Assembly: GCF_023238205.1 (NCBI RefSeq)
Contig: NZ_CP096659.1
Span: 3,365,626-3,429,625 of the forward strand
Length of the DNA stretch: 64,000 nt
Reading direction: 5' to 3'
Source: Halorussus limi
GTDB lineage: Archaea > Halobacteriota > Halobacteria > Halobacteriales > Haladaptataceae
Position numbers and translations under genes: made by a program. The notes under the pieces are model-generated. The model saw only the letters and a list, made by a program, of their open reading frames with translations. It searched no databases and was not told the origin of the DNA. Below are positions 3,532 to 25,718 of the stretch, piece by piece. Every line of letters begins with the position of its first letter. Position 1 is the first letter of the stretch.

Positions 3532-4837
3532 AGACGACGTGACCGTCGTCGGGGGCGGCATCGCCGGGATGACCGCCGCGCTCGCCGCCGCCCGCGAGGG
3601 CGTGGACGTCCGCCTGCTCTCGCACAAGGACTCGACCCTCAAGAGCGCGAGCGGACTGGTGGACGTGTTGGGGTATCTCCCCGAATCGGACGGAGAAGGA
3701 CCGCTCTCCGACCCCTTCGAGGCCATCCCGCAACTCCCCGACGCCCACCCGTACCGGACCGTGGGCGTCGAGGGCGTCCGCGAGGCGCTGGCGGTCTTCG
3801 ACGGGGTCGTCGGCGACCGCTACCGCGGCGACCACACCGACCGAAACGCGCTCGTGCCCACTCACGGCGGGGCGGTGAAACCGACAGCGCGCTACCCCGC
3901 GAGCGCGGCGGCCGGACTGGCGAGCGACGACCGGAGCGCCCTCCTCGTGGGGTTCGAGACCGTCACCGACTTCGACGCGCCATTGGCGGCCGACCACCTC
4001 GAATCCGCGGGCGTCCCGTTCGCCGCGCGGGGCGCGACGATTTCGTTCCCCGGCGACTTCCGGGTGGACGCCAAGATTACTCGGTTCGCCGACGCGCTCG
4101 ACGCCGACGAGCGCGTGGCAGTCCAGGGTGACGGCTACACGACGGAACTCCCGGTCCGGGAGGCGCTCGCGGAGGCGGTGAAACCCCATCTCCGCGGCGC
4201 GGAGCGCGTGGGCTTTCCGGCGCTCCTCGGCCAGCACCGGCCAGACGAGGTGCGCGAGAGCCTCGAAGCAGAACTCGGCGCGGCGGTGTTCGAGGTGCCG
4301 ATGGGACCGCCGAGCATCCCGGGGATGCGCCTCGAAGGCGCGCTTACCGGGGCGTGCCGGGAGGCGGGCGTGCGCTTCACGACCGGCAACCCCGTCGTGG
4401 ACTACGAGGAAGGCGGCAGGGCGGGCAGCGAAGACATCGCCGCCGTCCGCGTCGAGCGCAACGGCGCGGCGATTCCGTTCCACGCCGACCAGTTCGTGCT
4501 GGCGACCGGCGGCCTCGTGGGCAAGGGGATCGACTCGGACCGCGAGGGCGTCGCCGAACCGATTTTCGACTGCCACGTGCCCCACTCGGGCGACCGGTAC
4601 GACTGGTTCGCCGACGCGGCGTTCGGCGACCACCCGTTCGCTCGGTTCGGGGTGGAGACCGACGACGACCTGCGACCCCTCGACCGGAGGGGTGACGTGG
4701 AGTTTCCGAACCTCCGGGCCGCCGGGGCGGTGCTGGGCGGCCACGACTTCGCGGCCGAGAAGTCCGGTGCGGGCGTCTCGCTCGCCACCGGCGTCGCGGC
4801 CGGACGCAGCGCGGCCAAAGAGGTGTCTGATTCATGA
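3521..4837 (+). CDS. glpB: Anaerobic glycerol-3-phosphate dehydrogenase subunit B
   Basis: FAD/NAD-fold subunit linking the GlpA catalytic centre to the Fe-S subunit GlpC. I chose the GTG at 3521, giving a protein that starts [13 protein letters not shown], because GlpB proteins begin just before this dinucleotide-binding motif; the frame is open to a TTG at 3491, but that would add ten unlikely residues. The protein is 438 aa. It overlaps glpA by 11 nt and glpC by 4 nt (ATGA), a tight operon. A late [10 protein letters not shown] segment is typical of flavoprotein dehydrogenases and succinate-dehydrogenase-like folds. Confidence 0.94.
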
Positions 4838-6183
4838 GCGACGCAGAACAGCCAACTAACCCGAACGACTCGAACGACGTGAACGAAGTGCGCCACGAGG
4901 AAACGGTCTCGGACGACGAGTTCGAACCGGTGCAGGTGTTCCCCGAGAGCGAAGACATGGACCTCCGACCGGGGAGCGACGACTGTTACAAGTGTTCGAC
5001 CTGCGACACCAACTGCCCCGTCGCGGAGGTGGACGACGACTTCCCCGGGCCGAAGTTCCAGGGGCCCGAGCAGTGGCGACTCAAGCGCAAGGAGGACACC
5101 GACATCGACGACTCGGTGATGTCCTGCTCGAACTGCATGCGGTGTGACTCGTCGTGTCCCTCCGACGTGCCCCTCAGCCAGATGCACAACACGGCCCGCG
5201 GGGAGTACGTCGAGAACCAGATGGACAAGCTATCCCGGGAGTACGTCCGCAACCGGATTCTGGCGAACTACCGGACGATGGCGGAACTCGGGAGCAAGGT
5301 CCCGCGACTCACCAACTTCCTGATGGGCAACTCGCTCGTGCAGGCGGTCAACGAGAAGGTGCTGGGCATCACGAGCGAGCGTGAGTTCCCCGAGTTCGCC
5401 GAGGAGACGTTCCGCGAGTGGTGGGAGAAGCGAGGTGGCCCGCAGGTCCGCTCCGAGGACAAGCGCGTCGCGTACTTCCACGGCTGTTACTCGAACTACA
5501 ACACCCCGGCGGTCGGCAAGGCGATGGTCCGACTGTTCGAGTCGTTCGGCTACGAGGTGGTCGTCCCCAAGCAGCGGTGTTCGGGGACGCCCATGTTCGC
5601 CAACGGGATGCTGGACGACGCCAAGCGCGCGGCCGGAATCAACGTCGAGAACTTCTCGGGCCTCGTCGAGGAGGGCTACGACATCATCGCCTCCTGTACC
5701 TCCTGTTCGATGTCACTCCGCCAGGAGTACCCGGAACTGTTCAGTTACGACGGGACCGCCAGCGTCGCGGCCCACACCTACGAGGCGCTCGAATACCTCC
5801 GACTCCACGAGGACCTCGAAGCCGAGTTGGCGGACGCGGAAGTCGACGCGGGCGAGTTCGCCTACCACGCGCCCTGCCACGCCCGGAATCAGGGTCTGGC
5901 CGGACAGGCGGTCGAACTCATCGACGGTCTTGACGGCGCGAACGCCGAGGACGTGGGCGACTCGTGTTCCGGCATCTCGGGCACCTACGGTTGGAAGGAC
6001 GAGAAATACGAAACGTCCATGAAAATCGGCGCTGAGATGTTCGAACACATGGAGGAGACCGACGCCGAGGCGGGCATGACCGAGTGTCCGACCTGCGCGA
6101 TGCAGATGGAACACGGGACCGGCTACGAGATTCGCCATCCGCTCGAAGTGCTGGAGGAGGCCCTCGTCGAGGGGAGCCACTGA
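4834..6183 (+). CDS. glpC: Anaerobic glycerol-3-phosphate dehydrogenase Fe-S subunit C
   Basis: Electron-transfer and membrane-anchoring subunit of the GlpABC complex. Two 4Fe-4S ferredoxin motifs are visible: C51-x2-C54-x2-C57-x3-C61 and C98-x2-C101-x2-C104-x3-C108. Two CCG-type cysteine-rich domains follow (around HGCYSNYNTP / RCSGTPM and HAPCHARNQG / CSGISGTYG), the usual heterodisulfide-reductase-like architecture. Length 449 aa. The N-terminal ~45 residues are an acidic haloarchaeal extension. It overlaps glpB by 4 nt and is followed after 6 nt by a Cdc6-like ATPase gene. Confidence 0.96.
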   Translation: MSDAEQPTNPNDSNDVNEVRHEETVSDDEFEPVQVFPESEDMDLRPGSDDCYKCSTCDTNCPVAEVDDDFPGPKFQGPEQWRLKRKEDTDIDDSVMSCSNCMRCDSSCPSDVPLSQMHNTARGEYVENQMDKLSREYVRNRILANYRTMAELGSKVPRLTNFLMGNSLVQAVNEKVLGITSEREFPEFAEETFREWWEKRGGPQVRSEDKRVAYFHGCYSNYNTPAVGKAMVRLFESFGYEVVVPKQRCSGTPMFANGMLDDAKRAAGINVENFSGLVEEGYDIIASCTSCSMSLRQEYPELFSYDGTASVAAHTYEALEYLRLHEDLEAELADAEVDAGEFAYHAPCHARNQGLAGQAVELIDGLDGANAEDVGDSCSGISGTYGWKDEKYETSMKIGAEMFEHMEETDAEAGMTECPTCAMQMEHGTGYEIRHPLEVLEEALVEGSH

Positions 6184-6189
6184 GCGCCG

Positions 6190-7341
6190 ATGGACCTCGA
6201 AGAACGAATCGCTCGGCGACAGGCCACGCGGGGCGACGACCTGTTCGTGGACCGAAGCCCGCTCAACCCCGCGGTTCACCTGCCCGACCCGGTCGGTCGG
6301 GGTCCAGTCCTCGAACGCCTCCTCGACGTTCTCGACCCCGTGTTCGACCGGCGACTCCCGCCGGACGCCGCGGTGTACGGGCCGAAGGGGTCGGGGAAGT
6401 CGGCGCTCGTGAGTGCGCTATTCGCTCACCTCAGCGACCAGTTCGGGCGACGGCACCGCCGAATCGGTACGACGACCCGCGCCGGGACCGCCGCCGACGC
6501 CGTCGAGTTCGTCCACGTCGACGGCTACCGGACGACCAGCGAGTTCCAGTTCTACCACACGCTGCTCGACGCCGTGGTCGAGGAGTCGGTCCCCCGACGC
6601 GGCGTCGGGACCGACCGACTCCGCGAGCGGTTGGTCGAGCAGTTCTCGTCGTCCGCCCGGAGGGCCGTCGTCGCCGTCGACCACGTCGGGAGTCCGAGTT
6701 CGCCCGACGGCGGAAAACTCCGCGAGTGGTTCGACCCCGTCGCCGACGACGCGGCGCTCGTGGTCGTCGGCCGAGCGGTCCCCGACGACTGGAGCGCGAA
6801 GACCGTCCACGTGCCGGAGTACCGCCAGCACGCGCTGGTCGACATTTTGACCGAGCGGGCCTCGCGAGCGCTGACGAGCGGTGCCCTCAGGCACGGGCAG
6901 GCCCGCCATCTCGCGGAGTGGGCCAGCGGCGACGCCCACGACGCCCTCGCGGCCGCGTTCGGCGCGGCCGACATCGCGGACGCCGACGGTGCCGACCGAA
7001 TCCGGGCGAGCGACGTGGACGCCGGCATCGAGGACGTGCCCGACGACGGGATTCACGTCGGGCGGGTCTTCGCCCTGCCGGAGAACCGGCGCGAGGTCCT
7101 CCTGAAACTCATCTCGCTCGACGCGACGCTTCCGATAGACGACGCGGCCAGCGCCATCGCGGAGCGCTCGGACCTGACCGCGGCGACGGTCAAGCGGTTC
7201 CTCTACGAACTCGCGGAGCGGGGCGTCCTCGAACGGATTCAGACCGACTCGACCGACGGGAGCGGGCGTCGCCCTAGCCGCGCAGTTCCGCGGTTCCCGA
7301 CCCTCCCGTTCCGACGCCTCGACGGCAGACGGTCAGCGTAG
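6190..7341 (+). CDS. Orc1/Cdc6-like AAA ATPase with winged-helix domain
   Basis: The protein (383 aa) has an Orc1/Cdc6-like layout: an N-terminal lead, a Walker A loop GPKGSGKS at residues 64-71, an AAA lid-like middle, and a C-terminal winged helix around residues 285-350 (LPENRREVLLKLI ... VKRFLYELAERGVLERI). The Walker B-like strand reads VVAVDH (160-165), with His where replication initiators usually have Glu, so ATP hydrolysis may be weak or absent. It lies 6 nt after glpC, so it is probably co-transcribed with the glycerol genes rather than sitting at an origin. I infer a divergent regulatory or accessory paralog, not a main initiator. No repeated origin boxes were seen nearby. It overlaps the convergent next gene by 9 bp. 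Confidence 0.8.
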   Translation: MDLEERIARRQATRGDDLFVDRSPLNPAVHLPDPVGRGPVLERLLDVLDPVFDRRLPPDAAVYGPKGSGKSALVSALFAHLSDQFGRRHRRIGTTTRAGTAADAVEFVHVDGYRTTSEFQFYHTLLDAVVEESVPRRGVGTDRLRERLVEQFSSSARRAVVAVDHVGSPSSPDGGKLREWFDPVADDAALVVVGRAVPDDWSAKTVHVPEYRQHALVDILTERASRALTSGALRHGQARHLAEWASGDAHDALAAAFGAADIADADGADRIRASDVDAGIEDVPDDGIHVGRVFALPENRREVLLKLISLDATLPIDDAASAIAERSDLTAATVKRFLYELAERGVLERIQTDSTDGSGRRPSRAVPRFPTLPFRRLDGRRSA

Positions 7342-9578: not shown

Positions 9579-10550
9579 TCAGTCGTTGCGCGGCGCGGGC
9601 GTCGCGGTCGGGTCGTCCTCGACGTAGTCGAGGTCGTCGGTGTAGTAGTCCACGAGCAGGACCGCCGCGGTGCCCGCAACGCCGGCCAGCAGGACCGCGG
9701 CCACGCGCGCCACCGGCCACTCGCCGCCGGCGCCGAGAATCTTCGCGACCGGAAGCCGTAGCGCGCCGACCATCAGCGCGACGAGGAACGTCAGTGTCAC
9801 CTCGCGGTGGTTCGACAGCGCCCATTCGACGACGCGGGCGAAAGTGAGGATGCCGACGGCCGCGCCCGCGACGAACGACACCACGGCGACGGCGGGACCG
9901 ACCGCGGATTCGACCGGACCGCCGCGGACGACGCCGACGGCCTCGTCGATGAACGCGTGGAGCGTGTCCGACATGAAGATGTACTGGCCGAACAGGATGA
10001 GTAAAAACGACCCCGAAACGCCGGGCAGAATCATCGCGCAGATGGCTATCGCGCCGACGACGAACAGGACGGGCGGCGAGTGGGGAATCGCCGCGGCCGT
10101 CGACTCACTCGCGAGCAGGAACGCGACGACGAAGCCGACGACGGCGGCCGCCTTCTCGCCCCCGGTGTCGAGTCGGACCTCGCTCCAGAGGACGAGCGCG
10201 GACGCCGCGATGAGACCGAAGAAGAACGCGAACAGGACGGCCGGCGACGAGTCCGCGATACGACTGACCGCTCCGGTCACTCCCACGATGGCGGTCATGA
10301 TTCCCGCACCGAGGACCAGCAGGAACGCCACGTCCATCTCGCGGAGCATTCCCGCGACGCGCCGCCGGGCCTCGGGGTCGTAGACTCGCGGCAGGTCGGC
10401 CAGCACGCGGGGGTCGAAGGCGGCGATGGCTCCGACCAGTCGCTCGTAGATGCCGGTTATCAGCGCAATGGTCCCGCCGGAGACGCCGGGGACGGCGTCG
10501 GCGGCACCCATGGAGACGCCTTTCAGGTAGATGGAGAGCCACTCTCGCAT
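9579..10550 (-). CDS. DUF368 membrane protein, candidate polyprenyl-phosphate translocase
   Basis: A 323-aa polytopic membrane protein. I start it at the ATG at 10550 (MREWLSIYLKG) since the open frame upstream has non-membrane, Arg-rich sequence. Two copies of the DUF368 signature are visible: DAVPGVSGGTIALITG near residue 20 and ILPGVSGSFLLILFG near residue 190, as expected for an internal inverted repeat. DUF368 proteins in bacteria (PopT-type) were shown to return undecaprenyl phosphate across the membrane. Here the gene lies 191 bp downstream of aglB on the same strand, which suggests dolichyl-phosphate as substrate. That substrate is an inference; the family call is firm. Confidence 0.88.
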   Translation of the reverse strand: MREWLSIYLKGVSMGAADAVPGVSGGTIALITGIYERLVGAIAAFDPRVLADLPRVYDPEARRRVAGMLREMDVAFLLVLGAGIMTAIVGVTGAVSRIADSSPAVLFAFFFGLIAASALVLWSEVRLDTGGEKAAAVVGFVVAFLLASESTAAAIPHSPPVLFVVGAIAICAMILPGVSGSFLLILFGQYIFMSDTLHAFIDEAVGVVRGGPVESAVGPAVAVVSFVAGAAVGILTFARVVEWALSNHREVTLTFLVALMVGALRLPVAKILGAGGEWPVARVAAVLLAGVAGTAAVLLVDYYTDDLDYVEDDPTATPAPRND

Positions 10551-10741
10551 TGGCGAGGGGTACGACAACCGGCCGGAAAACGGTTTGCTTTCTCGGAGGA
10601 CTGAGTGGCCCTGGGGCATAGACGGCACGAGACCGTCCCGGTCGCGGTAGCTACCCGTTGGACACGAAAACTGACGTTGAAAAACGAACGCCGGAAAATC
10701 GGACCTCGAAAATCGACCGCTCGAAAACGACGCGCCGCGTT

Positions 10742-13700
10742 TCAGTCTCGGTTCGCGAGCGCGAGCGCACCGGCCCACGCGCCGACGAGTCCGGCGCGCG
10801 CCGGAGCGGTCTCCTCGCGTTCGGGGAGCGCGCGTTCGGGCGTCATCTTCGACTGCGCGTCGGAGGGCGACGCGTCGGCCGAGGACCCGAGCGCGGAGGC
10901 GTTCGCCGAGTCGTTACCGGTCGTCCCGTTCGCGGCGGTTCCGTTTGCGGGCGCCGTCTGGTTGCCGTCGGCCGTCGAGTTGTCGCTCGACTGGTTGTTC
11001 TGCCGGAGCGAAACCGACTCCTTCGTCAGTTCGACCGTGGTGGTCTCGTTGCTCTCGCCGATGACCTGCGCCTCGGTGACGTGCGCGGAGGCGTTGTGGA
11101 AGGTGACGTTGCCACCCTCGAAGCTCCGGGGCGTGTAGAACTGGTACTGACCGGTCGCGCGGACGCTGACGTTGGTGTACCCCTTCTCGGGACCCCAGTT
11201 CTCGTAGCCGGTCGAGGAGTACGGCAGGGTCATCGTGAACTGACCGTCCGGACCGGTCCGGGCCTGCTGGGTGTAGGTGAACGACCCGTTCTGACCGACC
11301 GGCGATAGCTGGACCGCGGCCGTGACCGTGGTGTTGGCCGGGCCGGTACCCTTCACGGTCGCGCCGGGCACGCGCTCGAACGTCTTGACCCACGAGGGCG
11401 CGGTCTGGAACATCTGTCCGGGGCTCCGAATCGCCTTCCCCTGCAGGAGCGTCTGCATCTCGGCGCGGAGTCGCCGGGCCCACTGCGCGTTGCTCGTCCC
11501 GGAGGCCTCGCTCTGCTTGACCACGCGGTAGTGGTTCAGCGCCTCGACGGGTTCGCTCGGGAACTGCCCGATGCCGCCGATTTGGGAAGTCGAGTCGTTA
11601 GCGACGAACGCGCGGGCCTGCTTCATCGTCTGGAACCGCCGGACGAGCGTCGCGTTCGGTCCCTGCTCGGCGAGTTTGAACGAAGCGACCTGTCCGTTCT
11701 GCGTCCGATACTGGCGGGCCTGCCAGTCCACGACGATGGGTTTGGGCTCCATGCGACTGCCGTGATAGAGGTAGAGCCGCGCCATCTGGCTGTCGTAGTA
11801 CTTCTGGGACCGCAGGTTGAACGCGGTCTGGAGTCCGTTCTGACCCTGTCGGTAGATCGGTTGGTAGTAGGTCGAGGGAGTGACGTTCTTCTTGAACGTC
11901 GCCGGGGCGAAGAACTTCCCGCCGGCATTCGGGTACACCGACGCCATCTTCCAGTCGACCATTACGTACCGGGTCTCCTCGCTGGGCGCGCCGAGGGTCT
12001 TGATGATCTCGTTCGCGCGGGACTCGTTAGGTGCGAGCAGGTACTTCGCGGCGGTCTCGGCGCCTTCCTGGAACGGATTGGCGTTCGGGATGCGCTCGCC
12101 TTCGACCGTAATCCAGTGGCCGTAGTCCCACCACGACATCACGCCGTAGGCCCCTTGGGGGTATTCGTAGTCGCTGTTACTCTGCGGGAACGTGCCGTAG
12201 TACTTCATCTCGTCCGCGTTGTTCGCGTTGGCGTAGTCGCCCTCGGCGGGCGTGCTGTTGGCCAGCCAGTCGAGCGACCCGTCCCACTTGGTGATGTCGC
12301 CCGGACTGGTCTCTGCGGCCTGCATCGCGGTGTTCGTGTTGTCGACGCTCGCGTACCCCGACGACCCGATACTGGCCGGGGTGACGAGTACGGGCGTCAC
12401 CATCAACACGACCAGGAGAATCGTGACGACCTGCGTCCCGTTGATGTCGGCGATGTTCTCGGGGCGCGGGAACTGGGCCCACGCGATTACTCGGCCGAGC
12501 AGGTACGCGTTCAGCACCGCGACCGGCACCGCGAGGTAGTAGTTGAACCGAACCTGCGTGAACGCCGCCGCGGTGATGAACGCGGCCCACACGAGCACGA
12601 GGAGGTGTTCGGCCTTGTGGTCGTCGGACCGGTAGGCCCGCCAGACCATCCAGACCGCGGCGAGGACGGCCGTGAACAGCATCAGGCCGTACTCTCGAAT
12701 AATGAGGTCGTACCACTCGATGCCGATCTGCGGCTGGACTCGGGAGAGGAACGGTTGCGCCTCGCCGATGGTTCGGGTTTCGGCGTTCGTACCGAACCCG
12801 ATGATTCGGAGGAGGTTACGATGGACGAGGTTGTACAGCGGGCGGAACGCGACGTAGACCACGCCGACGACGCCGAGTACGATGCCGCCGACCGTCGCGG
12901 GGTATAGCCCCGTCGAGAGGTCGCGGGCGTCCCATTGGCGGGCGAGCCACGCCATGAAGACACAGCCCGCGGCGACGGCGAACGCGAGTAACGGCTGGAG
13001 CAGCGAGAACTTGGTCGGACTCGGGTTCAGCGTGCCGAGCGGTACCAGCATGAGCAGTCCGGTCACGCTCATGCTTATCGCGCCGACGAACGCGAGGTGG
13101 TCCGGACTGACGCCGCGTGCGTAGTCGGCAGTGAGTTTGAGTCCGAAGAAGGCGCCGAAGATACCGACGAGCAGCACGCCCGGCGGCCACGTCCAGAGGT
13201 AGAGCGCGGTGGCGATGCCGGCCAGCACGCTGTAGCCGATTGGCGCTCGGAGCGCCTCGAAGTCGCGGTCGGCGAGCAGTTCGTACACCGGCTTCTCGCG
13301 CTCGGCGACGCTCAGCGCGACCATCATCGCCAACACTGCGAACGCCTGAAACAGCGGCTCGGCGATGTTGTGGTCGGCGAAGCCGACGAGTCCTCGTCGG
13401 AGGAAGGTTCCGGGTAACAGCGCGAGGACGACGACGCCGAACAGCCCGCCGGGGCGGCCACCGAGGCGCTTACCGACGAAGTACGTCGGAACTGCGACCA
13501 GCGCCCCGAAGACGGCGGGCGCGACGAGGAGGGTCATCGCGACCGTCTTCTGGGAGGGGTCGCCGAGTCCGACGACGAGCGCCGCCGTGGCGATGAGTTG
13601 GTCGTACAGCGTACCGAACTGGCCGACGCTGGTGCCGAACGGGAAGTAGGTCCACGGGTCGTACGGCATCGTGGACGGCCAGTTGTTCACCGTGTACTGT

Positions 13701-13906
13701 ACCTGCCGGAGGTGATACCACGCGTCGTTTCCGTCGAAGAACACCTCTCCGTTGCGGATGAACTTGTCGAACGACTGGAGTCGAACCCACAGCATGAACG
13801 AGAGCGCTGCGGCGAGCACGGGGACGTGATACCAGTCCTCGAACGAGTCGAGGACCGAATCGACGGTATCGGACGAATCCTCGACCTGCTCAGTCTGCTG
13901 GCTCAT
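10742..13906 (-). CDS. aglB: AglB oligosaccharyltransferase (STT3 family)
   Basis: Catalyses transfer of the dolichol-linked glycan to Asn in N-x-S/T sequons on the outer face of the membrane. The 1054-aa protein has a short acidic cytoplasmic N-terminus, about 13 transmembrane helices up to residue ~500, and a large external C-terminal domain. The first external loop has the metal-binding DGNDAWYH (residues ~58-65); the sequon-binding SWWDYGHW is near residues 589-596. The C-terminal ~90 residues are low-complexity and end ALALANRD. It heads the minus-strand part of the glycosylation island and is followed by the DUF368 gene. A TATA-like element ~25-32 bp upstream implies its own promoter. 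Confidence 0.97.
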   Translation of the reverse strand: MSQQTEQVEDSSDTVDSVLDSFEDWYHVPVLAAALSFMLWVRLQSFDKFIRNGEVFFDGNDAWYHLRQVQYTVNNWPSTMPYDPWTYFPFGTSVGQFGTLYDQLIATAALVVGLGDPSQKTVAMTLLVAPAVFGALVAVPTYFVGKRLGGRPGGLFGVVVLALLPGTFLRRGLVGFADHNIAEPLFQAFAVLAMMVALSVAEREKPVYELLADRDFEALRAPIGYSVLAGIATALYLWTWPPGVLLVGIFGAFFGLKLTADYARGVSPDHLAFVGAISMSVTGLLMLVPLGTLNPSPTKFSLLQPLLAFAVAAGCVFMAWLARQWDARDLSTGLYPATVGGIVLGVVGVVYVAFRPLYNLVHRNLLRIIGFGTNAETRTIGEAQPFLSRVQPQIGIEWYDLIIREYGLMLFTAVLAAVWMVWRAYRSDDHKAEHLLVLVWAAFITAAAFTQVRFNYYLAVPVAVLNAYLLGRVIAWAQFPRPENIADINGTQVVTILLVVLMVTPVLVTPASIGSSGYASVDNTNTAMQAAETSPGDITKWDGSLDWLANSTPAEGDYANANNADEMKYYGTFPQSNSDYEYPQGAYGVMSWWDYGHWITVEGERIPNANPFQEGAETAAKYLLAPNESRANEIIKTLGAPSEETRYVMVDWKMASVYPNAGGKFFAPATFKKNVTPSTYYQPIYRQGQNGLQTAFNLRSQKYYDSQMARLYLYHGSRMEPKPIVVDWQARQYRTQNGQVASFKLAEQGPNATLVRRFQTMKQARAFVANDSTSQIGGIGQFPSEPVEALNHYRVVKQSEASGTSNAQWARRLRAEMQTLLQGKAIRSPGQMFQTAPSWVKTFERVPGATVKGTGPANTTVTAAVQLSPVGQNGSFTYTQQARTGPDGQFTMTLPYSSTGYENWGPEKGYTNVSVRATGQYQFYTPRSFEGGNVTFHNASAHVTEAQVIGESNETTTVELTKESVSLRQNNQSSDNSTADGNQTAPANGTAANGTTGNDSANASALGSSADASPSDAQSKMTPERALPEREETAPARAGLVGAWAGALALANRD

Positions 13907-14019: not shown

Positions 14020-15489
14020 CTACCAGTTCAGGAACCGTCCGGGAATGGCCGATTCTATCCGGGAACCTCGAAGTACGCTCGCGATAGTGTGGCGAAGCTG
14101 GCCGCTTATAGCCAACAGTCCGAGGCCGTACACGCCGGCACCGACCGCCAACAGGATTGCAAGGTCGAACCACCGCTGAACTGCGACGACCCGATGGACC
14201 GCGGTCACCGCTAGGAACATCACCGCTCCCATTCCGAATTGTTCGAGGAGCGTCCGCGGAAACAGCGTGAGGTCTGGAAGGTGGCGCTTCACTAAGACCG
14301 ACAGCGCGACGTACCGAATGGACTCCGCGACGATGGTAGCGATTACGACACCGATTGCACCGAGCAGGTACACGAGCGCCACACCGAGGACGACGTTCAC
14401 CGCGAGTGTCGCCACGGAGAGTCGCATGTTCGTATCGGGCATGTCTAGGCCGTTTACTGCCTGTGTTAGCGGGGCACTCTGTGTCCGCACGAGGCGGTAC
14501 AGGGATAAACCGATCAACAGCGATGCCGCTTCGGCGTACTCGCCTCCGTAGAAGGTGACGATAAGCGCTTTCGGTATAGCGAGCGCACCGAAGAAGATGG
14601 GTATCGACAGAATGCTAGCGAACGCGAGCGTGTTCGAGATGTCCGGTTCGACGTTCTCGCCCCGACTGTGAAGATCACTGACTCTCGACATGAGGCCGCT
14701 CGCGGCCGTCGTCGCGACGAAGATGGCAGGTAGCGTCAACTTCGCCGCGACCTCATACATTCCGGCAGCGGCAGGGGTAAGCATGAGACCAAGCAGGAGC
14801 AGGTCGAATCGGCTGTATACCGTTCCGAAGAAGTTCGACGGAATGCTGTACTTGGCGAACTCCCCGACGTTTTGGACCGTCGCGCGCGTCGGTAGCGCCG
14901 GAGAGACGCCTATGTAGTGGAGCAACACGGGTACGACGAGAAGAGATGCTCCAGACAAACCGTACGCCATCCCGGCGGCTCCGAACCCGTAGGCGACGAA
15001 CGCGATTTGGAGTGGGAGCGTGAGGTACGAACGGAGCGCATCAACCCACGTGGCCGCACCGATGAGTCCACGAGCCTGCACCAACTTTTCGAGTGGTTCG
15101 TACAGCGAAACTGACAGGAGGAGTACTGCGAATAGAATCGGGGCTTCCTGCAGACCCGTGTACGACCGGAGCCACCCGGAGAAGACGATAGTTCCTGGAA
15201 GGACGACTACGGTCCATCCTACGACAGCAAACAGGACCGAACCGAGGAGTTCGCGGTCGTGGCTGGACACCTCGGAGAAACGCTTCTTTGCAGCGATTCC
15301 CCATCCGTTTATCGGCCTGTCCGCCAGTTTCACGAGACCGAACAGGAGGTAGAATCCCCCGAACGAGGTCGGTCCGAGGATGCGCGCAAAAAGGATCGTT
15401 CCGACGAAGCCAGTCATCGCCATCGTGAACTTCGCCAAGGTTGCCTTGACGGTTTCCCCGCCAAGACTTACGTTGGATGCGTCGGACAT
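14020..15489 (-). CDS. Wzx/AglR-type polysaccharide flippase
   Basis: A 489-aa MATE/MOP-superfamily exporter with about 14 hydrophobic segments, starting MSDASNVSLGGET (ATG at 15489, one base after the upstream stop). The typical first-helix region GFVGTILFARILGPTSFG fits the polysaccharide-synthesis family. Its likely job is moving the completed dolichol-linked glycan to the outer face before AglB acts, as proposed for AglR in Haloferax. It is the last gene of a tight three-gene unit with two phosphatase-superfamily genes (15491 and 16393). Base composition is visibly less GC-biased than in the flanking housekeeping genes, suggesting exchange of the island. Confidence 0.9.
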   Translation of the reverse strand: MSDASNVSLGGETVKATLAKFTMAMTGFVGTILFARILGPTSFGGFYLLFGLVKLADRPINGWGIAAKKRFSEVSSHDRELLGSVLFAVVGWTVVVLPGTIVFSGWLRSYTGLQEAPILFAVLLLSVSLYEPLEKLVQARGLIGAATWVDALRSYLTLPLQIAFVAYGFGAAGMAYGLSGASLLVVPVLLHYIGVSPALPTRATVQNVGEFAKYSIPSNFFGTVYSRFDLLLLGLMLTPAAAGMYEVAAKLTLPAIFVATTAASGLMSRVSDLHSRGENVEPDISNTLAFASILSIPIFFGALAIPKALIVTFYGGEYAEAASLLIGLSLYRLVRTQSAPLTQAVNGLDMPDTNMRLSVATLAVNVVLGVALVYLLGAIGVVIATIVAESIRYVALSVLVKRHLPDLTLFPRTLLEQFGMGAVMFLAVTAVHRVVAVQRWFDLAILLAVGAGVYGLGLLAISGQLRHTIASVLRGSRIESAIPGRFLNW

Positions 15490-15490
15490 A

Positions 15491-16396
15491 TTACTCGATG
15501 TAGCCGAGTTCGCGGAGTCGTTCGGTCGGCATGTCGATGTCGTCAACGTCCCCGTCGGTCGCCGATAAGTGACGATCTATCCATGCAGGAACGTCGTAGA
15601 CGCTTTCGGGGATTTCATCCGTGGTAGCGCTCGCGTACGCCCGCCACGAGTGAGTCGCGGGATCGGCGTCGGCGTCGGCATCAAGGAAGTTGACGGACAT
15701 CCCGTGGTCGCTGAGTAGGAGGAGTTCGTCTTCCTCGCTGAGTTCCGTGACTAACTCCGCCACAAATGCACCCACACGGCGATAGACGCGCTCGAGCGAC
15801 TCGGGATCGTCGGCGTAGGCGTGTCCGGCTGCGTCCAGCGTGTGGACGTGAACCCCGGCGAGTGAGACGTCGTGGTGGAGTATCTCCCGTGCCCAGCCGA
15901 ACTGCTCGGCGCAGAGACAGAGGAGTTTCCGCTCGAACTCCTGCTTCGACATCCCCTCTGCAACCGCGTTCATCAGGTCCCACGCCTGCTGGAGGTCGCG
16001 CCCGTCGGTGACACCCGGCCAATTCCGGACGACCGCGTTGTCCCTGTCAAACGCGGTCTGGCGGTCGGTCCGGCCGATGGTCTCACGTTGGTTGGTCGTG
16101 TTCCGAATGAATCGACCGAGCGTTCCGCGCGTACTTTCGGAGAGTCGGCCCGTGAACTTCGAGGCGAACTCCAGCAACGGGTTCCCCCACTCGCTCGTCC
16201 CTGCTCCGGTCACGCCGTGTTCCTCGGGACCGACGCCGGTGGCGACGGTGGTCCACACCTCCGGAGTGTACGGGTCGTCCTTCGAGTAGGCGAACGTCTC
16301 GATGGGTCCCGACGATTCGAGGCGGAATTCATCGAGGTTGAAGTGTTCGACCAGTCCAGCGTCGAGCGCGTCGAGAGCGAGAACGACGACAGTCAT
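15491..16396 (-). CDS. Alkaline-phosphatase-superfamily phosphodiesterase-like protein
   Basis: A 301-aa protein of the type I phosphodiesterase/nucleotide pyrophosphatase clan. The N-terminus VVVLALDALDAGLV carries the first metal Asp, TPEVWTTVATG holds the likely Thr nucleophile, and LLLLSDHGMSV provides the Asp-His metal ligands. No signal peptide is visible, so a cytoplasmic or membrane-associated role is likely. It ends LRELGYIE, a tail related to that of three other paralogs in this island. It overlaps the upstream gene by 4 bp (ATGA) and is followed after one base by the flippase start. It may remove or transfer a phosphate or sulfate group on a glycan intermediate; the substrate is unknown. 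Confidence 0.85.
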   Translation of the reverse strand: MTVVVLALDALDAGLVEHFNLDEFRLESSGPIETFAYSKDDPYTPEVWTTVATGVGPEEHGVTGAGTSEWGNPLLEFASKFTGRLSESTRGTLGRFIRNTTNQRETIGRTDRQTAFDRDNAVVRNWPGVTDGRDLQQAWDLMNAVAEGMSKQEFERKLLCLCAEQFGWAREILHHDVSLAGVHVHTLDAAGHAYADDPESLERVYRRVGAFVAELVTELSEEDELLLLSDHGMSVNFLDADADADPATHSWRAYASATTDEIPESVYDVPAWIDRHLSATDGDVDDIDMPTERLRELGYIE

Positions 16397-17493
16397 GCGT
16401 ATCCCAGGTCCTCCAAGTCCTCTTGAAGCGCGTCTTCTTTGACGACCCGGCCGGGCTCGAACCGCTCTAGTTCTCGTTCGAGAGCAGGGTCTTCGACCGA
16501 CTCCGCACCGTCGAGGGTCGTCGTCGCTCCTCCGGTCGAGAAGTGTTCGGCGTTCATCGCCGCCTTCCGGTCGCCGTAGGTGGCGAACGCGACATCCCTG
16601 TCAAGTTCGCCGATTCCGTGTTCGACTCCCAACAACACCGAAGGAACGTCGACCAGTGAGACGACCTCACCCAGTTCCGGCGCGTTTCGCGTCCCGAAGG
16701 GAACGTGTAACAGTTCAGGTCGCATCTTTCCGGGATGGCCCCAGAGTCCGTCTTCGCCGAGCAGTTCACCGTGGTCGGCACAGAACACGACTCGCGCGTC
16801 GTCAGGCACGATCTCCCAAAGAGTCGTCAGCGCCGCGTCTAACTCTTTGATTTCGGTTCTGTAGAGTTCGCGAACTCGCTCCCTGTCGGCCTCGTCACCG
16901 CCGCCCGCGAGGACCTTGCGGGTGAGTGCTTGGGCTTGCGCCCGACTCAAGTCGGCCGTGTCGGGATCATAGGGATGGTGGGGTTCCATGAAGTGGAGCC
17001 AGCCAAACCACTCGCTCCGGCCGTCTATCTCCGAGCGGAACCGCTCAATTACGTCGTCGGCGGGTCGGAACGACTTCTCGACATCGCCGAACGCGCTTAC
17101 CAGTTGCTGATAACGATTGAAGCCCCACGAAGCGACTCGGTACGGGACGGACCCACGCGTGAGAAATGCCGCCCCTTTGTCTTTGAGCGTATCGCCGCCG
17201 CCCGTCGGAGACTCGAACGCATCGAACCCCTCGGCGTACCCGTATCGCTCCGAGAGGAGGTGGTTCGTCGTCACGCCCACACTGTACTCGTCGAACCGGG
17301 TTGCGACGTTCGTCCCGCCAAGGCCGGACCCGTCCGGGTACTCACCGCCGATGATTCCAGGAAAGCTCCCGATAGTCGCCGTACTGGGAGCGAACGCCCG
17401 GTCGTGTGTAGTCTGGAGGAACGATTGAGTCTCCGGCATGTGCCGGAAGTGGTCGTACCGAAGAGAGTCGACAGTGACCAGAAGTGTTTTCAT
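16393..17493 (-). CDS. Sulfatase-like alkaline-phosphatase-superfamily protein with altered nucleophile loop
   Basis: A 366-aa protein starting MKTLLVTVDSLRYD, the sulfatase-type first metal site. The nucleophile loop reads APSTATIGSFPG: relative to the sister gene at 17882 (TVPAH) it keeps the Thr but lacks the Pro and the basic residue. The second metal site FCADHGELLGEDGLWGHPG is intact. It ends DLEDLGYA. A Shine-Dalgarno-like GGAG lies 6-9 bases before the ATG. It is the first gene of a three-gene unit ending in the flippase. A phospho- or sulfo-glycan hydrolase/transferase role is inferred from context; hydrolysis may be impaired. Confidence 0.85.
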   Translation of the reverse strand: MKTLLVTVDSLRYDHFRHMPETQSFLQTTHDRAFAPSTATIGSFPGIIGGEYPDGSGLGGTNVATRFDEYSVGVTTNHLLSERYGYAEGFDAFESPTGGGDTLKDKGAAFLTRGSVPYRVASWGFNRYQQLVSAFGDVEKSFRPADDVIERFRSEIDGRSEWFGWLHFMEPHHPYDPDTADLSRAQAQALTRKVLAGGGDEADRERVRELYRTEIKELDAALTTLWEIVPDDARVVFCADHGELLGEDGLWGHPGKMRPELLHVPFGTRNAPELGEVVSLVDVPSVLLGVEHGIGELDRDVAFATYGDRKAAMNAEHFSTGGATTTLDGAESVEDPALERELERFEPGRVVKEDALQEDLEDLGYA

Positions 17494-17881
17494 TGGTATC
17501 TCCTATTCAGCTATGAGGATTTGAAGGTGACTCTTCTCTTCCGGGCTACAGACACCTGCAATTCCCGAGCGGTTCTCGTGTCAGCCGAATCGCTATTCGA
17601 CGTTTTACTCGAGTAACGTACAGCGCGACGAGGATCACGGGCGCATAACCGGATTCTCCAACCGGTGTTGCCCCCGGTTGAGTCACGCCGTGTTCTTTTC
17701 GACGGACGCCGGTCGTCACTGGTGGCCCCACTTCGGGCGTGACGAGTCCGTCTATCCACGACGTGACCGTCTCGATTCAGTCGTGGTTGGCGAAAAGATA
17801 TTCTCGCAGTTCCACTGACGGGGGAATCAGTAATCGGCGGCGGCGAGAGCGATGACCGCGGGCGTTCGCACAGAAAACGGT
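17494..17881. other. 388-bp intergenic region, no supported gene
   Basis: Lies between the 5' end of the 16393-17493 gene and the 3' end of the 17882-19219 gene, both on the minus strand. It is visibly less GC-rich than its surroundings. One minus-strand open frame (17511-17885) is rich in Arg/Ser/Thr and overlaps the next gene's 3' end, so I read it as chance. A 7-bp inverted repeat, CAACCGG (17659-17665) and CCGGTTG (17674-17680), is the only structure noticed. The promoter of the 16393 unit should lie here. Confidence 0.6.
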
Positions 17882-19219
17882 TCAAGCGTATCCCAAGTCT
17901 TCTAACTGTTCCATCACGGCGTCGTCAAGTTCGTCGTCCTCTGCGACACGCCGTTTGTCGAGTTCAGCAATTCGCTCAGCGAGGTGAACTTCCGGGTCCT
18001 TGAAGGGAGAATCGCCGATCTCTGAGAACCCGTCGAAATCCTCGTACCCGTAGTACTCACCGTAGACGAGGCCGTTGAGTTCGTCGTTGAGGTGTTCGTA
18101 ATCGGTGATGTCGTTGTTCTCCAGTACCTGGAAGTAGCGGTCCGAGAGGCCGTGATACTCAGTGAGGAACTCGCCGTCTTCGACGGGTTCCAGGAGGTCC
18201 CTACCCCGCGAATCGTCGGCGTCGATTCCAGCGAGCGAGAGAATCGTCCGGTGAACGTCGAGCAGACTCACCGACTGTTCTCGGGTGCCGGCGGTGAGAT
18301 TCTCGGCGTCGGTGACGCCGTCCCGGGCGTAGATCGACAGTGGGACGTGCGTGAGTTCGGGCGGGATACCCCAGACGTGTTCCCACGCACCGTACTCGCC
18401 GAGGAGTTCACCGTGGTCCGACACGGTGACTATCACGTCGAAGTCCTCACGGAGTTCCGCGAACATCTTCCGGTACATGTCGGAAAGGTAACTTACGCTG
18501 TCGCGGTAGGCCTGCCTGACTCGCTCGGGGTCGACGTCCGTGTCCGCGAAGGACGCCTGTAATCCCTTGATTTCGGGCGGCTCGACGGTTTGATACTCCT
18601 CCGGAGGATCATACGGTGAGTGGGCCTCCATCAGATTCACGAACAGGAACTCCCGGTCGCCGAATTCGGCGTTCCGAATCATATCGAGCGCGGCGGTCGC
18701 GCCGTCGTCTCTGGTCTCGTGTCCGTACCCCCAATCCCGCATCTTCATCTGGACGCCGTGCTTGAGCGAGGGAATGGTGTCACAGTCGCCGGTGAGGCAT
18801 CGCCAGAGACCGAGTAGATACCGTTTCGGGCCCATATCTCGGGAATCGACGATGAACTCCTCCCAATCGAAGACGGTCTCTTCGAGCGCTCGGAGCCGCC
18901 AGCTTCCCTCGAACTGCTCGAACCCGCGATCGTACCCGAACTGATGGGAGATGTTTACGTTGCCGCTGAAGGCTCGCGTAGTGTATCCTGCCTCGCGGAG
19001 TTGCTCGGCCAGCACTGGTCGCTCACAGTCGAGGCTCTCGGCACCCATGTATGCGCCGACTTCGCTGGCGTAGCGGCCGGTGAACAGGGATGCGTGGGCG
19101 GGAACCGTCCAGTGGCTAGTCGACCAAGCGTTCTCGTATTGAACACCTGGGAGCCAATCGAACTGCCTGTCGAAGGCGTCTTTCCGTAATGTGTCGAGGA
19201 CTACCAGCGCGACGTTCAT
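17882..19219 (-). CDS. Sulfatase-family (alkaline-phosphatase-superfamily) enzyme
   Basis: A 445-aa protein beginning MNVALVVLDTLRKDAF (ATG at 19219; the much longer open frame runs into a divergent gene and is not real). Metal and nucleophile sites are clear: VLDTLRKD near the N-terminus, STSHWTVPAHASLFTG with Thr in the sulfatase Cys/Ser position, and VSDHGELLGEYGAWEH. Two of its Cys (in LTGDCDT and SLDCERP) are outside the active site. It ends MEQLEDLGYA. Thr instead of formylglycine-Cys points to a phosphate-type or transfer reaction rather than a classic sulfatase; its role in glycan modification is inferred from neighbours. Confidence 0.88.
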   Translation of the reverse strand: MNVALVVLDTLRKDAFDRQFDWLPGVQYENAWSTSHWTVPAHASLFTGRYASEVGAYMGAESLDCERPVLAEQLREAGYTTRAFSGNVNISHQFGYDRGFEQFEGSWRLRALEETVFDWEEFIVDSRDMGPKRYLLGLWRCLTGDCDTIPSLKHGVQMKMRDWGYGHETRDDGATAALDMIRNAEFGDREFLFVNLMEAHSPYDPPEEYQTVEPPEIKGLQASFADTDVDPERVRQAYRDSVSYLSDMYRKMFAELREDFDVIVTVSDHGELLGEYGAWEHVWGIPPELTHVPLSIYARDGVTDAENLTAGTREQSVSLLDVHRTILSLAGIDADDSRGRDLLEPVEDGEFLTEYHGLSDRYFQVLENNDITDYEHLNDELNGLVYGEYYGYEDFDGFSEIGDSPFKDPEVHLAERIAELDKRRVAEDDELDDAVMEQLEDLGYA

Positions 19220-19345
19220 TGGTTGTCTGGGCTCACGTTCGCTCGGAGTTAAATGTATTCCGTCCTCTACGCAGTAGTGCCGGTCAATTCCAGGTCCGGC
19301 ATACAGTACGCACGACTGAGCAGAGGCCGTTCCGACGCGGAAAGA

Positions 19346-19353
19346 GTTTATCA
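19346..19353 (+). promoter_or_regulatory. TATA box for glycosyltransferase at 19379
   Basis: GTTTATCA lies 26-33 bp before the ATG at 19379. It fits leaderless transcription and argues against the upstream start at 19253. Confidence 0.65.
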
Positions 19354-19378
19354 CGTCACTCCGAACAATCTCCCAACA

Positions 19379-21457: not shown

Positions 21458-22600
21458 TTACTCCGTCGCAGATTCGGTCGTGGACTGCTCTACGACCTCT
21501 CGCAGTCGGTCCTGGAACTCCTCGTATCGGTACTGCTCGGCAATCTCGAGAATCCGGTCAGCGTCGAATTTCTCGGGGTCGAACTGCCGGACCGTCTCCC
21601 GAAGCGACTCTACTGTCGGTTCGAACAGGAGCCCCGTTTCCTCCGTCACCTGATACTTTGTGAACCCCTCGTTCACCCCCAGAAGCGGCTTGCCCGCGCT
21701 CAACGACTCGGCCCCGACTAGTCCGAAGTCTTCCTGCTTGGGCGCGTAGACGACCGCAGTGGCGTTCGCAACGAGTGATTCGATATCTTCTACGAAGCCG
21801 CGGACCTCGATGTTGTCGTGACCTGCAGCGATGCGCCCTATCTTCTCACGCTCCTCACCGTCACCTGCGACCACGAGGCGTTCGTCAAGTTCCGTAAACG
21901 CCTCTACAATCATCGGAATCCGCTTTTCGGGGGCGAGCCGCGACCAAGTGACGAAGTACCCTTCGTCACCCTCGTTTCGCCAATCGCCCGTGACTGGCGG
22001 ATAGACTACTTCTGCGTCACGGCCGTAGAACCGGCGGATTCGGTCGCGGATGAGTTCGCTGTTGGCGACGAACGTGTCTACGTAGTCGTTGGCCTCCTTG
22101 TCCAGCGCACGCCACCACTTCGCGTAGGCCTTGAGGAAGACGCGAACGCCGGGATAGTCGAACGAGTCCATCCGGTCCCGATAGAGGTCGTAGAGCCACC
22201 GCGGCGGACTATGCGGATAATGTATTACGGTCTGGTCTACATCCGGGACGTAGTGTTTACTCAGCGGGGCACTTTCGAGGACGACGTCGTAGTCCTGCAA
22301 GTCCGGATGAGCGTCGGTCATGTCGAGGGCGACGCTCAGGGTCTCCAGCGGATTCATGCCCTCGTTCTTCCACTCGAGGAGGTGTTTCGACAGACCTCGG
22401 GCGTACTTGTTCTGTCTGATCGGAATGACTTCCACGTCGTTAGGCAGGTTGGTTCCCGCCGAGACGTACATCGTGTAAATCGGGGCGTCAAGCGTTCGTG
22501 CCGCTTCGATAGCGAACGTTTCGCCTCCGCCAATTTGGGGAAAACGATCGTGGAGGATGGCGACGGAGAGGTCTTCGGCGCCAGCGGTGTTCCCGACCAT
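21458..22600 (-). CDS. Family 4 glycosyltransferase
   Basis: A 380-aa GT-B enzyme. SVAILHDRFPQIGGGETFA is the N-terminal acceptor loop, FVTWSRLAPEKRIPMIVEAF begins the donor domain, and EDFGLVGAES carries the complete Glu-x7-Glu catalytic/donor motif. Unlike the GT4 at 19379 nothing essential appears lost. It transfers a nucleotide-activated sugar, probably to the dolichol-linked chain. It is preceded by the minus-strand GT2 gene (61 bp apart) and may share its transcript. Confidence 0.92.
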   Translation of the reverse strand: MVGNTAGAEDLSVAILHDRFPQIGGGETFAIEAARTLDAPIYTMYVSAGTNLPNDVEVIPIRQNKYARGLSKHLLEWKNEGMNPLETLSVALDMTDAHPDLQDYDVVLESAPLSKHYVPDVDQTVIHYPHSPPRWLYDLYRDRMDSFDYPGVRVFLKAYAKWWRALDKEANDYVDTFVANSELIRDRIRRFYGRDAEVVYPPVTGDWRNEGDEGYFVTWSRLAPEKRIPMIVEAFTELDERLVVAGDGEEREKIGRIAAGHDNIEVRGFVEDIESLVANATAVVYAPKQEDFGLVGAESLSAGKPLLGVNEGFTKYQVTEETGLLFEPTVESLRETVRQFDPEKFDADRILEIAEQYRYEEFQDRLREVVEQSTTESATE

Positions 22601-22661: not shown

Positions 22662-23804
22662 TCATTCGAACGCCTCCCGAAGCTCCTCGTCGACTTCCCA
22701 CGTCCCGTCGCCCTTCCCGCGGAGCAGTTCGACCGCAGCGTGGAGCAGGGAGACCTGCGAGTCGAAGACCGCGTAAACCGCTTGTAGCGGGCCGAGGAAG
22801 TCCTTCTGTCCGAGCCAGACGAACCCGGCGAGCGCGGCCGGGACCGCGAGTCCGGCGACGCCCGCTACAGCAATTCCGGCGGCCGTGACCGCCAGCACGT
22901 CGAGCGCCACCAGCCACGGGGAGACGACCATGAACCACCAGTTGAACGGGAGGACGAGTCGCCCGTAGTTGCCGTACCTGCCGAGCGCGTCGCGGTGCTG
23001 GGCTAGCAGTCGAATCAGGCCCATCCCGCGCCGGTCCTTCTGGAGGCGACGCTTGCCGAAGTCCGAGTGGGAGGCCTCCTTGTACCGGACCGCGGGGTCG
23101 AATATCACCCGGTCGCCGCCCCGGCGTATCTTCAGCGCGAGTTCGGTGTCGTCGGCCAGCGAGTTGGGGTCGATGGGGACGATAGCGTCGTTCTCGAACG
23201 CCGAGAAGGGACCGTGAAAGATGAGCGTCGAGTCGAGGTGGGACTCTAGCGTCTGGATGTGAGCCTGCACGCCCCGATAGCCGGCCTCGACCTCGCTTCC
23301 GCCGAGGACCTCGGCGTTCTGGCCCGTGACCGCGGCCACGTCCGGGTCGGCGAGGTTGGCGGCCGCCTCCCTGAGCGCGTCGTCGGCGACGTAGGAGTCG
23401 CAGTCGGTCTTGACCACCATCTCGTTGTCCGCGGCGGCGTAGGCGTCGTTGAGCGCGGGCGCGAGGCCCCGGCGCTCCTGCTCGCGGATGAGGTTCAGGT
23501 CTGGATGCTCGCGGTCGGCGAAGTACTCCTCGATGATGTCGGGCGTCTCGTCGTCGCTGGAGTCGACGACGACCAGTTCGACCTTCTCCATCGGGTAGTC
23601 CAGCGACACCACGTCGTCGAGTTTCTTCTCGATGATTCCCGACTCGTTGTACGTCGGCAGGACGATGCTGACGGTCGGTTCGGCGTCGCGCTTGTCGGCG
23701 GCCGACCCGCTCGCCCCGACGGCCGCGTAGAGGGCGAGATACGCGAGATACGGCAGTGCCGTGGCGGCGACGAGCGCCCCGGCGACGGCCACGAGAGCGT
23801 TCAT
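22662..23804 (-). CDS. Family 2 membrane glycosyltransferase
   Basis: A 380-aa protein with an N-terminal membrane helix (residues ~2-30), a GT2 catalytic domain and two or three C-terminal helices. Motifs: VSIVLPTYNESGIIEKKL, KTDCDSYV (DxD) and LADDTELALKIRRGG (ED-like), then QKDRRGMG in the position of the Q/RxxRW loop of processive GT2 enzymes. This layout fits synthases or transferases that use a membrane lipid acceptor. It lies between the archaellin gene and a GT4 on the same strand. It could add a hexose or build a polymer; I cannot tell which. Confidence 0.9.
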   Translation of the reverse strand: MNALVAVAGALVAATALPYLAYLALYAAVGASGSAADKRDAEPTVSIVLPTYNESGIIEKKLDDVVSLDYPMEKVELVVVDSSDDETPDIIEEYFADREHPDLNLIREQERRGLAPALNDAYAAADNEMVVKTDCDSYVADDALREAAANLADPDVAAVTGQNAEVLGGSEVEAGYRGVQAHIQTLESHLDSTLIFHGPFSAFENDAIVPIDPNSLADDTELALKIRRGGDRVIFDPAVRYKEASHSDFGKRRLQKDRRGMGLIRLLAQHRDALGRYGNYGRLVLPFNWWFMVVSPWLVALDVLAVTAAGIAVAGVAGLAVPAALAGFVWLGQKDFLGPLQAVYAVFDSQVSLLHAAVELLRGKGDGTWEVDEELREAFE

Positions 23805-23923: not shown

Positions 23924-24529
23924 TTAGATCGTGACAGCGCTCTCTTGGGAGAGCGACTGTGGCACGTTGGCGCGGTACTGGGTCACTGCGCCGTACTGAG
24001 TGGTGAGCTTGAGTTTGACCTCTTCGCCCTCACCCAGCGGATTCGAAATCGCGCTGGCGTTCATCGAGACCTTGAACCGGTCGTCCTGCGTGTTGAGGAC
24101 GGGCGAGGAGCCGTCGGGGTCCTTGATGGGACTGACCGTGAAGTTACCGCTGTCTGCGGTCTCGTTGTAGGTCAGCGTCTTCGCCTCGTTCGGCCCGATC
24201 CACTCGATCGTGGCCGAAGAGAGATTGATGTCGTCCGACCCCGACCCGCGCATCACCGTCAGGTTGATCTGTTCGACTTCCTCGTTGGCAACGTCACCGA
24301 ACGCACTGACGACCTGCACGCGGTTCGAGACCTGTGCACTGCTCTCCTGACCGGTCTGTTCGGACTTGGTCTGGAGGAATCCGGCGGTGTTGATAAGCAC
24401 GCCCGCTGCGATCGCTGCGACGAGCACCATCGCGATGAACACGATGAGCGTACCGATACCCACCTGACCGCGGTCGTTGACCGCGCTCTCGATTCTATCT
24501 TTTACCGCTGAGAGATAATTCCGTGTCAT
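23924..24529 (-). CDS. Archaellin (archaeal flagellin)
   Basis: Structural subunit of the archaellum. The 201-aa preprotein has a class III signal: basic [11 protein letters not shown], predicted cleavage after G21, then [14 protein letters not shown], the conserved archaellin N-terminal helix. The C-terminal domain has five N-x-S/T sequons at N89, N102, N122, N129 and N157, so it is a natural AglB substrate. No other archaellum genes (arlF, G, H, I, J) are in the window, so this is a solitary archaellin embedded in the glycosylation island. A pilin is an alternative, but the [15 protein letters not shown] core is archaellin-like. Confidence 0.92.
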
Positions 24530-24812: not shown

Positions 24813-25718
24813 ATGGCCGACAGCGAGGACGTCTGCGTTCTCATCCCGACTTTGAACGAGGCCGAGACCATCGGCGAGGTTATCGACGGATTCACCGACC
24901 GCGGATACGAGAACGTCCTCGTCGTCGACGGGAACTCGTCGGACGGGACGACCGACATCGCCAGCGACCACGGGGCGCGCGTCATGTGCCAATCGGGGTC
25001 CGGAAAGGGGCAGGCGGTCAGGGAAGCGATCCAGCACATCGAGGCCGAGTACGTCCTGATGCTGGACGGCGACGGCACCTACCGACCCGAGGACGCCGAC
25101 GCGATGCTCGAACCGCTGGTGAACGGCGAGTACGAACACGTCATCGGCGACCGCTTCGCCGACATGGAGGAGGGCGCGATGAGTCGCTTCAACGAGTTCG
25201 GCAACGGCCTGTTCAACTGGGTGTTCCGCACCATCCACGGCAAGGACTTCGAGGACATCCTGAGCGGCTACCGGGCGTTCACCCGCGAGTCGGTGGAGAA
25301 CTTCTATCTCGACGCCGACGGCTTCGGCGTCGAGACCGAACTCGCCGTCGAGTGCGTCAAGCACGGCGTGCCGACGACGGTGGTGCCGATACGCTACGAG
25401 GCGCGACCCGACGAGTCGGACACCAACCTCCACCCGATTCGGGACGGCGGGGTCATCCTGATCACGCTCTACCAGTTGGCGAAGACTAGCAATCCGCTGT
25501 TCTACTTCGGGAGCGTCGGCGTTCTGAGTTCGCTAATCGGCGTCATCATCGGCGCGTACGTGGGCTACGAGTGGTTCGGTCCGGCCAACACGTCCCACGA
25601 GGTACTCGCCATCGTCGCCGCGTTCGCCATCCTGTTCGGGGTCCAGTTGCTGATGTTCGGTGTCCTCTCGGACCTCATCGTGACGCTCCACCGCGAACAG
25701 ATGCGACGGATGAAGTGA
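24813..25718 (+). CDS. aglJ: AglJ-like dolichol-phosphate hexosyltransferase
   Basis: A 301-aa GT2 protein: VCVLIPTLNEAETIGEVIDG at the N-terminus, VLVVDGNSSDGT, then MLDGDGTY (DxD) and DILSGYRAFTRE. Two C-terminal transmembrane helices (about 230-253 and 263-285) anchor it. The sequence matches the Haloferax AglJ type, which charges dolichol phosphate with the first (linking) hexose of the N-glycan. It diverges from the archaellin gene and sits at the end of the island. The gene name is by recognition of the family; other dolichol-phosphate mannosyltransferase-like paralogs are the main alternative. Confidence 0.82.
   Translation: MADSEDVCVLIPTLNEAETIGEVIDGFTDRGYENVLVVDGNSSDGTTDIASDHGARVMCQSGSGKGQAVREAIQHIEAEYVLMLDGDGTYRPEDADAMLEPLVNGEYEHVIGDRFADMEEGAMSRFNEFGNGLFNWVFRTIHGKDFEDILSGYRAFTRESVENFYLDADGFGVETELAVECVKHGVPTTVVPIRYEARPDESDTNLHPIRDGGVILITLYQLAKTSNPLFYFGSVGVLSSLIGVIIGAYVGYEWFGPANTSHEVLAIVAAFAILFGVQLLMFGVLSDLIVTLHREQMRRMK

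Follow-up and report, generated by a model that had tools for sequence, protein, structure and literature searches.

A DUF368/PopT-family gene following aglB in Halobacteria as a candidate for dolichyl-phosphate return after N-glycosylation

By which route does dolichyl phosphate come back to the inner leaflet once the oligosaccharyltransferase AglB has used it? The question arises for N-glycosylation in archaea and, to our knowledge, in eukaryotes alike. Here we analysed a locus of the haloarchaeon Halorussus limi in which the gene for a DUF368 membrane protein directly follows aglB, within a stretch of genomic DNA of 64,000 nucleotides, contig positions 3365626–3429625 (the window). Bacterial DUF368 members are undecaprenyl-phosphate translocases (PMC9876793), and a published account that gives dolichyl phosphate as the carrier does not name the recycling step (PMC3871713). 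The features of the gene pair are:

10742..13906, minus strand: aglB, oligosaccharyltransferase of 1054 aa (TIGR04154, PF02516, PF22627, PF18079)
10551..10741, minus strand: spacer of 191 bp from the aglB stop to the DUF368 ATG, with several TTTT/TTTTT tracts
9579..10550, minus strand: gene for a polytopic membrane protein of the DUF368/PopT family (PF04018), 323 aa; candidate dolichyl-phosphate translocase
10473..10490, minus strand: first signature, PGVSGG (residues 21–26), between two broken helices (H2-19 and H25-32)
10008..10025, minus strand: second signature, PGVSGS (residues 176–181), between helices H159-174 and H180-186; a repeat of the first

Translation and Pfam/NCBIfam scans of the window confirmed both genes, bearing out the sequence-only reading of this DNA, which had described, 191 bp past the end of aglB and on its strand, an intact DUF368 gene with both PGVSGG and PGVSGS signatures. 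The DUF368 protein matched PF04018 at E 3e-63 with 214 bits, above the gathering cut-off of 26, and covered profile positions 1–226 of 246. AglB scored 918 bits (E 4.5e-276) against TIGR04154, where the subfamily cut-off is 450, and contained the STT3, AglB core and AglB_L1 domains, with matches to PF02516, PF22627 and PF18079. The longest DUF368 open reading frame begins further upstream, at 10778; we took as start the ATG at 10550, 20 codons before PGVSGG, which agrees with the start positions of relatives and makes the gap to aglB exactly 191 bp. The spacer is 58 bp in another genome of the genus (G024), and at 191 bp and T-rich it makes separate transcription of DUF368 possible in Halorussus limi. 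This was the single DUF368 gene found in the 4.6 Mb assembly.

PF04018 was the sole Pfam match of the protein, with no match to the DedA/UptA family (PF09335, VTT domain). It shares the Pfam family, a near full-length match and both PGVSG signatures with PopT/DUF368 proteins VCA0040 of V. cholerae, SAOUHSC_00846 of S. aureus and HVO_RS12060 of H. volcanii, and its identity to the aligned bacterial members is about 36–43%. Against the NCBIfam PopT equivalogs NF052564 and NF052563 it reached 196 and 64 bits, below the 400-bit cut-off; on these profile scores it is a member of the PopT family that lies outside both equivalog groups. Unlike for bacterial PopT, the archaeal carrier is dolichyl rather than undecaprenyl phosphate, and the gene, rather than serving a peptidoglycan wall, directly follows one for an oligosaccharyltransferase.

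Alignment of the protein's two halves with each other showed them to be homologous (hhalign probability 97%, E 5.5e-11 to 1.9e-12), so that its membrane core is duplicated and carries one signature in each repeat, as in the family. An AlphaFold2 model built from 36 related sequences (pLDDT 91.8, pTM 0.86) placed the PGVSG signatures at breaks between paired helices, and P21, G22, V23, S24 and G25 did not vary among 35 haloarchaeal sequences. Alternating-access carriers typically have such a two-fold repeated core; alone it fixes neither substrate nor direction. A search of the PDB for structural relatives found none, either by sequence or with Foldseek (E below 0.001).

A family member from a related archaeon has been assayed in bacteria: the H. 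volcanii DUF368 protein HVO_RS12060, probably HVO_1532 under the former numbering, restored at least in part the growth of a V. cholerae vca0040 deletion mutant under alkaline conditions (PMC9876793). The aglB gene of the same organism is HVO_RS12050, with aglF, aglI and aglG at 12035-12045 (PMC7749143). Read together, these two reports place the rescue-tested archaeal DUF368 gene two locus tags from aglB. Among the papers searched, mostly without subscription papers and bioRxiv preprints, we found none that ties HVO_RS12060 to this adjacency. From the tag order and general knowledge, we take the locus tag between the two to be aglM.

To follow the pair across Halobacteria, we searched 146 genomes from 58 genera with the PF04018 and TIGR04154 profiles and, by comparing coordinates, counted genes within 5 kb as linked. 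DUF368 was present in 145 of the 146 genomes, and AglB exceeded the TIGR04154 cut-off in 145, with a weak match in the remaining one. The two genes were linked in at least 100 of the 146 genomes, spanning 41 of the 58 genera and 9 of the 10 families, and in all 100 the DUF368 gene lay downstream of aglB on the same strand; 100 is a lower bound, counted among the DUF368 matches listed, which did not include some weaker ones. The matches of four genomes fell outside the main listing, and two of these (G028, G047) proved unlinked in a search of 247 genomes. Named genomes that bear the pair include Haladaptatus, Halorhabdus, Halorubrum, Halolamina and Natrinema. No linkage was detected in 46 of the 146 genomes, and one of these (G021) has aglB with no DUF368 found. 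It had been set down beforehand that a lack of conserved linkage in other haloarchaea would speak against the functional proposal; the linkage was instead found to be conserved, in one order and on one strand, with many overlapping stop and start codons.

We next counted the neighbours of aglB in 42 linked loci, namely the window's own plus one from each of 41 genera, so that two come from the genus of the window. These loci were selected for linkage and hold DUF368 in 42/42 by construction, the unselected figures being the at least 100 of 146 genomes and 41 of 58 genera. Within them, DUF368 was the first gene after aglB in 40 and the second in 2. The next commonest neighbour, a glycerol-3-phosphate dehydrogenase gene that in most cases runs on the opposite strand, occurred in 16/42, and a GT2 glycosyltransferase gene, mostly divergent at −1, in 15/42 in all; no other neighbour is nearly as constant as DUF368, and the surroundings of the pair thus change fast. 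Identity to the window proteins fell to 35% for AglB and 41% for DUF368, so the two genes have stayed together through deep divergence. In 24/42 loci, with start codons chosen by open reading frame, the aglB stop and a possible DUF368 start share bases (ATGA, TAATG, GTGA) or are no more than 6 bp apart, a spacing that suggests a co-translated operon. Recurring as it does across Halobacteria, the adjacency is far beyond chance.

Some other genes near aglB recur to a lesser extent. The window carries glycerol kinase-like and glpA/B/C-like genes of glycerol metabolism at 63-6183, and across Halobacteria glp genes lie on the opposite strand, three to six genes downstream, in 13–16 of the 42 aglB loci. 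An Orc1/Cdc6-like AAA protein that scored below replication-initiator cut-offs is encoded at 6190-7341, with counterparts near aglB in 10/42 loci.

On the other side of aglB, the window holds further genes of a glycosylation cluster:

14020..15489, minus strand: Wzx/MOP-type flippase (PF13440, PF01943) immediately upstream of aglB; probably exports lipid-linked sugar
21458..22600, minus strand: GT4-type glycosyltransferase of the same cluster (domain scan)
22662..23804, minus strand: GT2-type glycosyltransferase of the same cluster (domain scan)
23924..24529, minus strand: archaellin (PF01917, 135 bits), a typical AglB substrate
24813..25718, plus strand: GT2 (PF00535) with C-terminal hydrophobic segments, dolichyl-phosphate sugar transferase of the AglJ/DPM type as judged from its layout

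With the flippase, the glycosyltransferases, the archaellin and the AglJ/DPM-type GT2 near aglB, the cluster has candidates for charging, export, use and recycling of the carrier. Between the flippase and the glycosyltransferases (15491-20074) lie a type I phosphodiesterase and two sulfatase-fold proteins, possibly glycan-modifying.

These observations lead us to propose, at a probability of roughly 60%, that the haloarchaeal DUF368/PopT protein works with AglB in one carrier cycle and returns dolichyl phosphate to the inner leaflet. In this cycle, the sugar chain would be built on dolichyl phosphate inside, the charged carrier would be moved outward by the Wzx-type flippase, and AglB would transfer the chain to protein on the outer face, leaving empty dolichyl phosphate in the outer leaflet. 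The carrier product of AglB is the monophosphate in the haloarchaea studied so far, which makes a phosphatase step unnecessary. DUF368 would then carry the empty dolichyl phosphate inward through its two-fold repeated membrane core, probably along a path lined by the PGVSG turns and with the bias coming from an ion gradient. The linkage in constant order and strand, together with the overlapping codons, speaks for DUF368 acting in the AglB pathway; taken with the bacterial function and the cross-complementation by the H. volcanii protein, the linkage also supports dolichyl phosphate as the substrate. Return of this lipid after AglB is the most likely function of DUF368, with transport and its direction inferred from family and gene context; the energy source and a dependence of AglB on DUF368 are likewise put forward as proposed features of the model. 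AglR/Agl15 and Wzx (MOP) flippases serve the same pathway and handle dolichyl-phosphate-linked sugars, as would the one upstream of aglB in the window; unlike DUF368 they belong to a different family and move the charged carrier outward.

How DUF368 fares away from aglB bears on this proposal. About one-third of Halobacteria have DUF368 elsewhere, often as a distinct and probably transferred copy, and some genomes carry both a linked and an unlinked copy. Maximum-likelihood analysis of 99 DUF368 proteins by a quick search (support as SH-aLRT only) placed linked copies in all deep haloarchaeal families, by which the linkage looks ancestral in Halobacteria, and it was lost several times within the class. 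Of 26 unlinked haloarchaeal copies, 21 formed one clade (SH-aLRT 95) that draws on families f3, f4 and f8 and has the f5 copies as its sister group. Unlinked copies as orthologues that merely moved would fit 5 of the 26, the other 21 forming that separate clade, and the tree reads most simply as an ancestral pair that in some members of f3 and f4 later gave way to a second copy, perhaps acquired by transfer. Members of the clade include loci L133-L157, which look like transfer and replacement.

DUF368 itself is almost never lost in Halobacteria, and its retention in 145/146 genomes even when unlinked counts for a part in the carrier cycle. Several separated copies keep company with glycosylation genes: in two genomes of one f5 genus, g9 (G096, G127), DUF368 and a UDP-sugar dehydrogenase gene of the aglM type stand head to head, and in two others (G014, G123) an aglM-type gene lies between aglB and DUF368. 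In one genome, Halonotius roseus (L176:1555-6960), DUF368 follows by 2 bp a same-strand cassette made up of a GT2-PMT fusion, a GT2 and GtrA, which should also use dolichyl phosphate and release it outside. Such company, beside aglM-type or PMT/GtrA genes when split from aglB, counts for a glycosylation-carrier role. A consistent partner was sought among the neighbours of the other unlinked loci, and none was found.

The sequence-only reading had cast DUF368 as the archaeal dolichyl-phosphate recycling flippase. Linkage, family and complementation support a part in the AglB pathway with dolichyl phosphate as probable substrate in Halobacteria; the extension to all Archaea is not supported. STT3 occurred in 235 of 247 Halobacteriota genomes and DUF368 in 81 of 247, and on this distribution we rejected DUF368 as the one archaeal recycler. 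Outside Halobacteria, DUF368 was found in 34 of 199 Halobacteriota genomes, all of which have STT3, in no case adjacent to DUF368, and no aglB was detected in the stretches flanking the 34 methanogen-side loci, which reached at most about 8 kb to either side. In four genomes from three genera of family f28 (G213, G221, G237, G316), STT3 lies 12–15 kb from DUF368 on the same strand; this may be loose synteny, and we discarded it as linkage outside Halobacteria because the distance is too great. In a Thermoplasmata metagenome-assembled genome (L231:207-6864), one strand carries STT3, AMMECR1, a dihydroorotase-like gene and DUF368 consecutively; with STT3 three genes upstream and unrelated genes between, the arrangement is suggestive only.

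A second family could do the same job. DedA/UptA proteins (PF09335), undecaprenyl-phosphate flippases of a different Pfam family from DUF368, share its proposed task of returning the empty carrier, and DedA was present in all 146 Halobacteria searched, with four copies elsewhere in the Halorussus limi genome. Among the 150 DedA matches listed, inspection by eye found none within 5 kb of aglB. Those of four genomes (G010, G039, G066, G089) lay 5–11 kb from aglB, nearer than the others among the matches listed.

The universal DedA counts against our reading and lends itself to a broader one, in which DUF368 and DedA together recycle the dolichyl phosphate that every outer-face reaction releases (AglB, AglS/PMT-type enzymes and exopolysaccharide), the position after aglB is an old operon rather than a dedicated partnership, and loss of DUF368 would barely affect N-glycosylation except at certain pH or salt. 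Such general housekeeping would also agree with the retention of DUF368 in unlinked genomes, with the PMT-type enzyme of the Halonotius cassette and with the conditional action of the DUF368 and DedA families in bacteria (PMC9876793). It would accommodate G119 (family f4) as well, which keeps DUF368 with no full-scoring aglB, its best AglB match reaching only E 1.3e-22. We nevertheless regard it as rather unlikely, given that the specific same-strand and often overlapping junction with aglB has outlasted changes in the other neighbours across deep families, and that no DedA gene among the 150 matches listed shares this position. Also counted against our proposal are the 46 of 146 genomes with no detected linkage, G021 with no DUF368 found, G119, the excess of STT3 over DUF368 in Halobacteriota, the T-rich 191 bp spacer and the scores below the equivalog cut-offs.

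Linkage to aglB would fit equally well if DUF368 instead flipped sugar-charged dolichyl phosphate outward to feed AglB, and a published account of the H. volcanii pathway names no flippase for the tetrasaccharide lipid, assigning AglR and Agl15 to other lipids (PMC3871713). This direction is improbable, as the bacterial members act on undecaprenyl phosphate and the H. volcanii protein partly makes up for the loss of one of them (PMC9876793), and a Wzx-type flippase already adjoins aglB in the window. That the linkage is a relic of synteny, with DUF368 doing an unrelated job such as ion or pH homeostasis, would agree with its absence in methanogens and repeated loss in Halobacteria but is likewise improbable, given that in 24 loci from different genera the junction measures 6 bp or less, that the linkage was retained across 9 families despite the turnover of other neighbours and that the family has a known lipid-phosphate function.

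Returning to the shared carrier cycle of DUF368 and AglB, a stronger version is conceivable, in which the two form a dedicated two-gene module and PopT receives the used dolichyl phosphate straight from AglB and delivers it to the inner leaflet; we put this forward tentatively, as a possibility that we would not yet favour. We know of no dolichyl-phosphate recycling transporter identified so far in any N-glycosylation pathway, and an AglB–PopT module, if true, would be the first. DUF368 would thereby gain a task in cells without peptidoglycan. The conserved pair, found in a genetically tractable group, names one candidate, HVO_RS12060, and makes the recycling question directly testable.
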